Shown in pieces: positions 57,073 through 64,000 of a DNA stretch of 64,000 nucleotides; positions within the stretch are counted from its first letter, which is position 1, and the number at the start of each line of letters is the position of its first letter. The position numbers were made by a program, and so were the translations under genes. This DNA is from Negativicutes bacterium (lineage in GTDB: Bacteria > Bacillota > Negativicutes > Anaeromusales > Anaeromusaceae). The stretch lies in NCBI GenBank assembly GCA_009929485.1, contig SAAJ01000002.1, forward strand, positions 62,001 through 126,000, read 5' to 3'. A model generated the notes under the pieces. The model saw only the letters and a program-made list of their open reading frames with translations. It did not search any database and had not been told where the DNA came from.

Positions 57073-57082
57073 TTCCCACTGA

Positions 57083-57121
57083 CAAAAATCCTGTCCGGCT
57101 AAGCCGGGCAGGATTTTTGTA
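57083..57121 (+). terminator. Intrinsic terminator of the asparaginase gene
   Basis: AATCCTGYCCGGC/GCCGGGCAGGATTTTTG stem and T-run just after the stop. Confidence 0.9.
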
Positions 57122-57216
57122 TTTTTTCTTTTTCCCCTTTTTACAAGCAGGGTTTCCTCGCCTAACGTCTAACCCTTTACTTAATATATGTATTATCCCC
57201 CAAGGAGGTCTCGAAC

Positions 57217-58500
57217 ATGGTTATACACAGCACATCCATTCTTATCAGCTTTCTCGACATACGAGACCCCGGACTGGAAAGCCCGCTGCAAGCCTTATGC
57301 CGTCAAATCACGCCGCAAGTGGTATATTTGCTGCCTTGCGCGCCCACGGAAGCCCCCGGTTCCGCTCTTTCCCAAGAGGCGGCAGATGCCATGCGCGAAT
57401 GGCTGCATACCGCTTACAGTCCTTCTTTGCCTGTGTATATTCGCCCCATAAACGCAGCCGATCCAACTAGTTTTACGGATATGCTCGCTGCCAGCAAGCA
57501 AACCTTACTGACCATCATCCGGCATTGGCAGCAACATCCGACGCAGTTCCATCTCAATACCTCTTCCGGAAGCGAAGCTATGAAAGGCGTGCTTCTGCTG
57601 TTATGCGAAGCTGGCCTTATTCCCAACGCTACCCTTTGGCAGGCGCAGCTAGTTAACAATCATCCCTCCCACCTGAAGCTCTCCCGTCTGCAGCCTACCT
57701 TGCTAAGCGAAGAGACGAGCCTGGAGCAGCTCCGCCCCTTAGCTGAAGAAATGCGTTTTGCCGAATTGGCTCGTGAATGCCAGCATATTAAATCGGTAAC
57801 CCTTTGCGCTGACTGCAGCCGCGCCGCCGGCTTGATGACGGAAATTTTCCAAGCCTATCATTACTGGGACGCCATGCAATATGCCGAAGCGTCCCGCCTG
57901 CTGCGCAGCCTTTGCTATAAACTATCCGATATTCCGGAAGCAGAGCTTCCTGCGGAGATACTTTCCAAGCAGTTTCTCTTTCTTGTACGCCTGCTTACCA
58001 ACGAGGAAATGTACAATCTTGATTATTTGACCGAGCTGGCCTTTGGCTGCGAACGCTGTTTTCTGCGCGGCGATTATCAAGGAACTTTCCTGCGTTTCCG
58101 CCGCTTTTATCAAGGTCTTTGCACCTATTTACTCCAGCAGGCCCGCCAAGAGATTCCAGCAGCTCTTCACGACATAGAGCAAGCCGTCCTCTCTTTGACC
58201 GAAATGCCTGGACGCGATTTCTCGCTTTTTTGGAATGTCCACTTGGAATCCTGTCTTTTAGGTGATCGAGTTCCCGCAGGCCACATTGTCGCCGCTCTCC
58301 ACGAGCTATACCAGCGTTCCTTTTTGGGCCAAGGCATGCAGCCCCTCTTAAAAACGGAAAGCGCCGACGCCCTGCTGGTAGTCCAAGAGATGGCTCGCTA
58401 TTTTCTACCCGCTTCCGACTATCCCTTGCAGCGCGACACGCTCGACAAGCTGCTCCCCTTCCTGCAACAACAGGGCGTCACCGCCGCCCTTAGCTTTTAA
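57217..58500 (+). CDS. Orphan CARF-domain protein (TIGR02710-like)
   Basis: 427 residues, start after AAGGAGGTCTCGAAC. The first 170 residues form a Rossmann-like fold: strand one ILISFLDIRDP (8-18) and then FHLNTSSGSEAMKGVLLLL (111-129), a close analogue of the SGT-x-M motif by which CARF domains bind cyclic oligoadenylate. From about 190 the protein is helical; LMTEIFQAYHYWDAMQYAEA and LAFGCERCFLRGDYQGTFLR recall the C-terminal half of the CRISPR-associated TIGR02710 family. No RxxxxH HEPN motif is seen. There is no CRISPR array or cas gene in the window. Assignment is by motif reading and is the main uncertain call here. Confidence 0.6.
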   Translation: MVIHSTSILISFLDIRDPGLESPLQALCRQITPQVVYLLPCAPTEAPGSALSQEAADAMREWLHTAYSPSLPVYIRPINAADPTSFTDMLAASKQTLLTIIRHWQQHPTQFHLNTSSGSEAMKGVLLLLCEAGLIPNATLWQAQLVNNHPSHLKLSRLQPTLLSEETSLEQLRPLAEEMRFAELARECQHIKSVTLCADCSRAAGLMTEIFQAYHYWDAMQYAEASRLLRSLCYKLSDIPEAELPAEILSKQFLFLVRLLTNEEMYNLDYLTELAFGCERCFLRGDYQGTFLRFRRFYQGLCTYLLQQARQEIPAALHDIEQAVLSLTEMPGRDFSLFWNVHLESCLLGDRVPAGHIVAALHELYQRSFLGQGMQPLLKTESADALLVVQEMARYFLPASDYPLQRDTLDKLLPFLQQQGVTAALSF

Positions 58501-58501
58501 G

Positions 58502-58544
58502 AAAAAATGGTTCCAGGCTTCGCATCAGCCTGGAACCGTTTTTT
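58502..58544. terminator. Bidirectional terminator between the CARF and DUF697-like genes
   Basis: AAAAAATGGTTCCAGGC with a complementary arm ending CGTTTTTT; the convergent stops lie on either edge. Confidence 0.9.
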
Positions 58545-58968
58545 ATGCCAAAGGAATTTCTTTTTGAGGATGTTCTCTCAGCTCATCCACTAAAAGCCGC
58601 GCTTGAAAGATCTGGCGCTGCAGGACGACCCCGTAGATCGGCGTAACAGCCGGACAACCGTCCGCCAGCCATTGTTCCGCCACACAGCCTACTGCATAGG
58701 TCACGCCGATACTGACGGGTATGCGCAAAGGAGGAAAGGGAATGCGCTCATTCAAGTCTGCCTGCAATACACCGCCCGGCAGCTGCTGTAAAAATTGCTG
58801 CGCTTGTTCCGTCGTCAACTTCCGGTCATAAATGCTAGCTAAGCTGCAAATCAAAGCTACCTCGTTCTCCAGGAGATTGTCACCGTCGGAAACCGCCAGC
58901 CAGCCTGCATGCGCTGCCGCCCAGCGGCGCAATTCCTCGGCTTTGCCAGCCACAGCCTGCTTGCCCAT
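58543..58968 (-). CDS. Small DUF697/YcjF-like protein
   Basis: 141 residues. The stretch NEVALICSLASIYDRKLTTE followed by LPGG, then IRIPVSIGVTYAVGCVAEQWLADG, has the order of the DUF697 module that is usually fused to a GTPase: two helices with a conserved IY, a glycine-rich turn, and Gly-rich hydrophobic helices. Here it stands alone. Start after GGAGGAGAGGGT. Convergent with the CARF gene and sharing its terminator. Function unknown; the family call is tentative. Confidence 0.6.
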   Translation of the reverse strand: MGKQAVAGKAEELRRWAAAHAGWLAVSDGDNLLENEVALICSLASIYDRKLTTEQAQQFLQQLPGGVLQADLNERIPFPPLRIPVSIGVTYAVGCVAEQWLADGCPAVTPIYGVVLQRQIFQARLLVDELREHPQKEIPLA

Positions 58969-62364: not shown

Positions 62365-64000
62365 CTAGATATAAGCACTATTCTTTCTCTCAGCACGCAT
62401 TTCAAATTCCGCCAAACAAACACGCAATCTTTCCACAAAACAATCACTATTAGTTGGAGATAGACAAATAAATCGAATACGATGGTCCTTAAAAAATTTA
62501 TTATTGTCACCTGCACGTCCTTCAGGATAAATAACCCAAACTTCCGGAACTGGCCTTATATCCAAAATATTATCTCCATATAGATATGCAGACATGCATT
62601 GCGTACTATAACATACCAATTGAATCATTTCACGCGAACGGAGATGCATTTTTAACTTACTAGCATCCCAGAAGCTTGATGGTCTTCTATATTTTACATC
62701 CATCAATAATGAACCTGAATAAGTATCCTTAATGTATACGTCAAGCCTAATATCTGGCTGATTATTGGCACCACACATATATAATGGACTATTATCATGA
62801 TCAGTTTCATTCATCTCATACGGTATTTTTGCATCATAAAACATTCGAATCATAATGCTTTCGTTTGCATTTTTATACTCAGAATATGATCCTGCTGGGA
62901 TTGCTGGTATCAATATATTTTCATCGCTCGTATTAATAGAATTAAACCATCCCCCACAAACAGAATATCCTATTGTTTTTAAAGCATTACTAACTTGAAG
63001 CAAGCACCAAATTTCATACAACTTATCAGTCCGCTTCCACTGATAATTGTATGTGGGATCTAAAGAAAAATTAATTTTTTTCGTTCTAACTTGATTATAC
63101 AGTTTATATAAAGTTTTATATCTAGAATCAATGAAAAGAATTTGCGGTACGTTATTAGACTGTATTTGTGAAACCTCTTGAAACCAAAATGTATTTTCTA
63201 GCATTTTAAATGCTGATTGCATTTTTTTTGCCTTTTTACAGAAACACGAAATATCTTTTATGCGCTTTCCCTTAATAGCTCTTTGTTTGCTAGATTTATC
63301 TCCATACCTAAGCAATTCATAAATTTCTTTTTCGGATTCTTCAATGTATTTTTCAGCAACATCAATAAAACCTTCTAAATTCCTTCCTAGAAAAAACAAT
63401 ATTTTCTTTATCCATCGATTTTCTTGCAAATCATAGTCTACTGAAATAACGGGACTCATTACAGTTTCTTTTTTATCAGGTCTACGCAAGCGCTGCTTCA
63501 GAGTTACCTCGTCAATAACACTTCCACTCGAAATAGGTTTCTCAATATATTCTTTCTTTAGTTTAAAGTTTGCCTTAGTGGTTAAATCGCTTAAAGCAGA
63601 CATTACTTTAGAAAAATTTTGTGCAATAAGCAAAAAAGACAATAACTTATAAGGAGGCATTGGAATATTCATTCCATTCATATTACCAAAGCCTAAATTC
63701 CGATAAATTAAGTCAGTAGCAATCCCCGGAAGTAACTTTTCTAGTTCATCTCGCATAGTTTTCCATTGAGGCCGTGATAAATGCTTTGGTTTAATAGCTA
63801 CACATGCATAATAAAACTGCGCTCGTACTTCAACAACAATTTGGTAATATCCTGGTATTAATGGGTAATCCTCATAACTAAATAAAGATCTCAATTCATC
63901 AGAAGGAAAGAAAAAAGCTCTCTCTTCTCCATCCAAATTACTATTAAGCAGCTCATCCATCCCTTCAATATACAATTTTGCTTGTGGATCATCACACTTA
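62365..64000 (-). CDS. DUF2357 protein with C-terminal PD-(D/E)XK nuclease (McrC-like), 5' end outside the window
   Basis: At least 540 residues; the frame stays open to the window edge (a TTG at 63975 is only an internal option), so the true start lies beyond 64000. The N-terminal part resembles DUF2357. The C-terminal nuclease core reads NQPDIRLDVYIKD then SLLMDVKYRR, the PD...D-x-K arrangement of the PDDEXK_7 (DUF524) family. Such proteins pair with McrB-like AAA+ motors in restriction-type defence; the partner would lie upstream, outside the window. The gene is visibly richer in A and T than its neighbours, with many Lys, Ile and Asn, a sign of transfer. Confidence 0.78.
   Translation of the reverse strand, partial: KCDDPQAKLYIEGMDELLNSNLDGEERAFFFPSDELRSLFSYEDYPLIPGYYQIVVEVRAQFYYACVAIKPKHLSRPQWKTMRDELEKLLPGIATDLIYRNLGFGNMNGMNIPMPPYKLLSFLLIAQNFSKVMSALSDLTTKANFKLKKEYIEKPISSGSVIDEVTLKQRLRRPDKKETVMSPVISVDYDLQENRWIKKILFFLGRNLEGFIDVAEKYIEESEKEIYELLRYGDKSSKQRAIKGKRIKDISCFCKKAKKMQSAFKMLENTFWFQEVSQIQSNNVPQILFIDSRYKTLYKLYNQVRTKKINFSLDPTYNYQWKRTDKLYEIWCLLQVSNALKTIGYSVCGGWFNSINTSDENILIPAIPAGSYSEYKNANESIMIRMFYDAKIPYEMNETDHDNSPLYMCGANNQPDIRLDVYIKDTYSGSLLMDVKYRRPSSFWDASKLKMHLRSREMIQLVCYSTQCMSAYLYGDNILDIRPVPEVWVIYPEGRAGDNNKFFKDHRIRFICLSPTNSDCFVERLRVCLAEFEMRAERKNSAYI

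Follow-up and report, generated by a model that had tools for sequence, protein, structure and literature searches.

The gene at the locus and its surroundings

The window, i.e., the whole stretch of 64,000 nucleotides analysed here, carries a gene whose product is a full-length Csm6-type protein with the order CARF-6H-HEPN, and the features of this gene are collected in Table 1. The original prediction, which was made from the letters alone, had proposed the open reading frame with its coordinates, its own ribosome-binding site and a terminator, and all of these were borne out by the sequence. The genus was sampled by four genomes including that of the window, one of which is a single 3.5-Mb contig and another of which is in two contigs. 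The block upstream of the ribosome-binding site is almost unchanged in the four genomes, though synonymous sites differ by about 0.5, and it may be a promoter or an operator. The same block carries a CTAACgtCTAAC direct repeat. The hairpin on the 3' side of the gene was scored on the minus strand, with a T run also on the plus side, and was not evident in the downstream alignment of the other three genomes of the genus.

Table 1. Positions in the window of the CARF-HEPN gene, its domains and motifs, and the flanking elements.
Feature	Position	Strand	Basis
Terminator hairpin between the asparaginase gene and the CARF-HEPN gene	57082..57120	+	Hairpin scoring; conserved in four genomes
Conserved upstream block, possible promoter or operator	57161..57189	+	Near-identity across four genomes
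Ribosome-binding site AAGGAGGT	57202..57209	+	Sequence; conserved in four genomes
CARF-6H-HEPN protein, Csm6-type, 427 aa	57217..58500	+	PADLOC PDLC01816, E = 4e-58, residues 9-417; Csm6 fold matches
CARF domain, residues 1-165 (approximate)	57217..57711	+	Alignment to relatives and Csm6 structures; model secondary structure
First pocket loop FLDIRDP, residues 12-18 (invariant Gly of the relatives = Asp14)	57250..57270	+	Alignment
CARF signature NTSSGSEAMK, residues 114-123 (relatives NxSSGTPQ[ML][KQ])	57556..57585	+	Alignment
6H helical region, residues 166-265 (approximate)	57712..58011	+	Sub-threshold Csm6_6H match; model helices
HEPN domain, residues 266-427 (approximate)	58012..58497	+	Alignment to relatives and Csm6
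Gln299 codon (Glu or Asp in 10/10 relatives)	58111..58113	+	Alignment
RVPAGH, residues 351-356, RxxxxH string off the HEPN active site	58267..58284	+	Alignment
Predicted dead HEPN motif YQRSFLGQG, residues 365-373 (relatives RNxSIVAHG)	58309..58335	+	Alignment
Terminator-like hairpin 3' of the CARF-HEPN gene	58509..58537	.	Hairpin scoring

The adjoining gene (58543-58968, minus strand) encodes a 141-aa protein of unknown family, which is conserved in all four genomes. It had been called DUF697-like, and this identity was rejected because the Pfam match (E = 0.048) falls below the cut-off. Beyond the lysR gene, the window encodes a DUF2357/PDDEXK_7 nuclease-like protein (62365-63975, minus strand). 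In one other genome of the genus, G003, an apparent defence island lies just past lysR (L056:14504-19743), containing a Mutator-family transposase, a reverse transcriptase matching Drt6/Drt4, a CBASS-type cyclase (PDLC00803) and a NucC-like effector. From the CARF-HEPN gene, it is about 4 kb to the start of the island and about 8 kb to the cyclase and NucC, and the content at this place differs in the genome of the window. The position past lysR may act as a defence-gene hot spot. The CARF-HEPN gene itself stands alone, and therefore its neighbourhood gives no functional clue.

Family, fold and functional sites of the protein

The protein was assigned by profile and structure searches. The PADLOC model of the CARF1--CARF_HEPN group matched nearly end to end with 195 bits, and the general Csx1/Csm6 model also matched (E = 1e-15). 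The N-terminal CARF domain, which had been proposed from NTSSGSEAMKG, is thus confirmed by the PADLOC match, and the domain was found by structure alignment and fold matches as well. In Pfam, the match to Csm6_6H (residues 178-233) was sub-threshold at E = 6e-4, the match to the RtcR CARF domain was weak (E = 0.19), no AAA+ or HTH match was obtained, and PF09455 gave no match at E up to 1. The C-terminal half had been described as helical and likened to TIGR02710. It is indeed helical, but alignment, model and fold matches identify it as 6H plus HEPN; NCBIfam gave no match up to E = 10, TIGR02710 included, and the protein is a Csm6/CARF1-type homologue.

A phmmer search of the PDB with the single protein gave nothing useful. 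When a profile of the window protein and its relatives was used, StCsm6' (1e-16) and EiCsm6 (1e-14) were matched end to end. The AlphaFold2 model (mean pLDDT 79) showed an N-terminal half with a Rossmann-like fold and a C-terminal half made of helices, and was weak (pLDDT below 50) at residues 330-354 and 371-374. Foldseek comparison of this model with the PDB bore out the placement among the CARF families, the best 17 matches being all Csm6. The whole-chain TM-scores against Csm6 were low (0.3-0.5), perhaps from a differing or poorly fixed angle between the domains, and the fold assignment rests on the Foldseek E-values and the full-length alignments rather than on these scores.

To examine the HEPN active site, the protein was aligned with ten relatives that lie outside the genus (L020-L024, L047 and L060-L063). 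The HEPN arginine and histidine are kept in all ten, as RNxSIVAHGM or close to it. YQRSFLGQGM of the window protein aligned to this motif without a gap, so that the arginine is replaced by Tyr365, the asparagine by Gln366 and the histidine by Gln372, while the flanking Ser, Gly and Met are retained. The alignment runs through the whole domain except for one shortened loop. The conserved acidic residue, located 68-93 positions ahead of the motif in the relatives, is Gln299 in the window protein; judged by position, it probably corresponds to Glu332 of TtCsm6. All four changes are common to the four genomes of the genus. In TtCsm6, a single alanine at Arg415, Asn416, His422 or Glu332 nearly abolishes the cleavage, and the mutants stay dimeric (PMC4748810). 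The R-X4-6-H catalytic motif is absent, with YQRSFLGQG at its site in all four genomes. From these alignments, the active site is in place yet mutated, i.e., degenerate rather than missing, and the protein is predicted to be a nuclease-dead Csm6 homologue. Residues 357-377 contain no variable position across the genus, which is not significant by itself (P = 0.06).

The original prediction had seen no HEPN RxxxxH motif. This holds for a functional motif, but two such strings exist elsewhere in the protein, RHWQQH (residues 102-107) and RVPAGH, neither of them at the HEPN site. We considered whether the protein could be an active ribonuclease with a relocated site, for example R351 and H356 of RVPAGH. 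Both residues are identical in the four genomes, and the spacing can change, as the R and H of HEPN1 in Csm6-2 are 73 residues apart (PMC11229360). However, RVPAGH is located where the helix 354-370 begins in the model, at the opposite end from the HEPN motif, the relatives have no matching residues, the acidic residue is lost too, and by our estimate the R and H content would give about one RxxxxH string by chance. RVPAGH was rejected as the HEPN motif for being off the active site and unmatched in the relatives, and a relocated site is quite improbable.

In the same alignment, 35 columns are invariant in the ten relatives, and the genus keeps 20 of them. R365 and H372 are among the changed columns. 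The first pocket loop has Asp in place of Gly14 and Ser in place of Gly22; in the NxSSGTPQ signature, Thr119 is Ser or Thr and Gln121 is Ala. S116 and K123 vary within the genus, and by alignment they are equivalent to S105 and K112 of StCsm6', for which the pocket contacts and an S105W mutant have been described (PMC10702470). No significant excess of variability over the average was seen in the CARF motif (P = 0.21). In CARF-type ring nucleases, conserved residues position and cleave cyclic oligoadenylate (N10 and T11 in EiCsm6). The positions of these two residues are occupied by I or S15 and R16 in the genus, and the catalytic relatives are also without the Thr. Because the pocket is altered, sensing of cyclic oligoadenylate (cOA) is doubtful, and its binding has likely been lost or changed. 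The proposal of a cyclic-oligonucleotide-responsive protein is right as to the CARF domain but uncertain as to the response, several pocket residues invariant in the relatives being changed and no type III source of cOA having been found in the genus.

Genomic context and conservation

Outside the genus, most of the relatives are encoded within type III loci and have an intact HEPN motif, RNxSIVAHGM. At L047, the locus from a Dethiobacter MAG, a csm4-like gene and cas1 lie on either side of the gene within a type III operon; the neighbours were named by reading there, and family matches support the homologues elsewhere. In five genomes (G316, G570, G231, G472 and G408), the gene is flanked by homologues of Csm3 and Cas10. 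In G451, the contig begins at the gene, and RAMPs are present elsewhere in the genome. This neighbourhood comparison covered the relatives other than L061-L063. In G370 (L053:9420-10415), an open frame of this family lacks the CARF part but has an intact HEPN motif, RHDSAAAHGM; it adjoins a nitroreductase-like gene, and the genome gave no RAMP match.

Close relatives were found neither in viral contigs nor in plasmid records, and none was found in 196 other genomes of the class; among the genomes covered by the analysis, the order is represented by this genus alone. A broad alignment contained no stretch conserved enough to serve for a contig scan, and a scan with a narrower alignment returned the Dethiobacter MAG locus only. 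Since no relative was found in these 196 genomes, the gene was probably gained laterally by the ancestor of the genus.

The genomes were searched for type III genes. The RAMP search was positive in the control genomes and in six of the seven other carriers, and it was negative in all four genomes of the genus. Cas10 was likewise not detectable in the four. The Csm1 matches in the genus were far below the cut-off, and the weak Cas10-palm and Csm1 matches were rejected, because the nine examined were GGDEF proteins (Cas10-palm) and HD-domain proteins (Csm1). The earlier remark that no CRISPR locus is in sight is true of the window but not of its genome, in which a type I-C cas locus is present on a different contig (C90). 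G001, also of the genus, encodes a Cas9-like protein with Cas1. Type I-C and Cas9-type systems make no cOA. The SMODS search detected a CBASS-type cyclase, accompanied by the NucC-like effector, in G003 only.

These results bear on two roles tied to cOA or type III immunity. The protein had been suggested to act as a helper in trans on a distant type III system, and its relatives are mostly encoded in type III loci. However, since the four genomes, of which one is a single contig, yielded neither RAMP nor Cas10 and the HEPN site is predicted to be dead, a helper or effector of this kind is not plausible and we regard it as highly improbable. Another possibility is a stand-alone ring nuclease or cOA sponge, in which the CARF domain only binds and destroys cOA, for example from an incoming mobile type III system or CBASS. 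The CARF domain of HEPN-dead StCsm6' (H336A) still degrades cA6 (PMC10702470), and G003 has the cyclase and NucC near the gene. On the other hand, the SMODS cyclase is present in only one of the four genomes and type III in none, the pocket carries G14D, G22S and Q121A, and the equivalents of StCsm6' S105 and K112 vary within the genus. This reading fits the altered pocket poorly, no cOA source shared by the genus was found, and we consider it unlikely.

The gene is well preserved in the genus. The frame is open in all four genomes, the protein identity is 91-98%, and the same neighbours occupy one shared chromosomal place in all four. The pairwise dN/dS was 0.06-0.10, within the range of the neighbouring core genes, and was also low for the HEPN half (0.04-0.10). 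Thus, the gene is vertically inherited in the genus under strong purifying selection. In the tree, the sequences of the genus grouped together as a single clade within the catalytic members (support 80/93), although long-branch effects make the exact placement unsure. The stem branch of the genus was 2.16 changes per site, followed by little change within the genus, i.e., much change on the stem and tight constraint afterwards. Loss of the catalytic residues and of a type III locus would also be expected of a decaying pseudogene, but an open frame in four genomes with such identity and a dN/dS like that of core genes leaves this explanation almost no credence, and it is refuted by the dN/dS result.

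Interpretation and comparison with known systems

In this genus, the protein has lost its residues for cutting and no type III system was detected, yet the gene is preserved almost without change. This pattern suggests that an old immune enzyme has been given a new job other than cutting. The proposal that the protein works outside CRISPR is supported by the lack of Cas10 and RAMP in the four genomes, the high identity and the shared place. The best explanation overall, which we hold with moderate confidence, is a non-cutting dimeric regulator or adaptor that binds a ligand or RNA and is derived from an old csm6 effector. More specifically, and only tentatively, the effector may have become a pseudo-nuclease, i.e., a sensor or RNA-binding regulator that does not cut, is passed on vertically and responds to an endogenous ligand other than cOA, in a lineage without type III.

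The ancestor of the regulator or adaptor would be a csm6 effector that belonged to type III CRISPR. The cOA-making machinery, undetected in the four genomes, would have gone, and the HEPN ribonuclease site would have been mutated at all its key positions, while the protein was retained at one chromosomal place in the genus by strong selection. We infer that the protein is a dimer that has lost its nuclease activity and changed its ligand, and it could act as a two-ended switch or adaptor without cutting. Its remodelled CARF pocket may bind a cellular nucleotide-like or RNA-end ligand, or may merely hold the dimer together, and the cleft of 6H and HEPN would bind RNA or a partner protein instead of cutting RNA.

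Every CARF family has genes that are unlinked to CRISPR (PMC4012209). The functions of these genes are mostly untested, and the gene in the window offers a clean case, which lets the exaptation of CARF-HEPN proteins as non-catalytic regulators be tested directly. It is also a warning that such genes should not be annotated as CRISPR ribonucleases. What appears to be new is a Csm6 homologue whose active site, changed at four positions, is predicted to be dead, and which all sampled genomes of a genus with no detectable type III system share under selection.

The protein resembles Csm6 of type III-A (TtCsm6 5FSH, EiCsm6 6TUG and StCsm6' 8PE3) in the CARF-6H-HEPN order, the fold and the full-length sequence relation. 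Unlike them, it is without the catalytic R, N, H and acidic residue of HEPN, its CARF signature is changed, and no type III system (Cas10, RAMPs) was found in its genome. The nearest relatives found belong to the CARF1--CARF_HEPN group PDLC01816 (L020 and L047), which it matches over the full length. However, it scores far lower with this model than L047 (672 bits) and L020 (805 bits), and the ten relatives keep the HEPN R and H and are mostly in type III loci. The CARF family PF09455 carries a remnant HEPN domain (PMC4012209) and offers an earlier example of a CARF protein with a decayed HEPN, whereas HEPN of the window protein aligns through the domain apart from the shortened loop and has a changed active site. 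RtcR, a CARF protein outside CRISPR, senses tRNA halves with cyclic phosphate ends (PMC7790460), and provides a precedent for a changed ligand; RtcR has AAA+ and HTH domains, whereas the output half of the window protein is a HEPN domain predicted to be dead.
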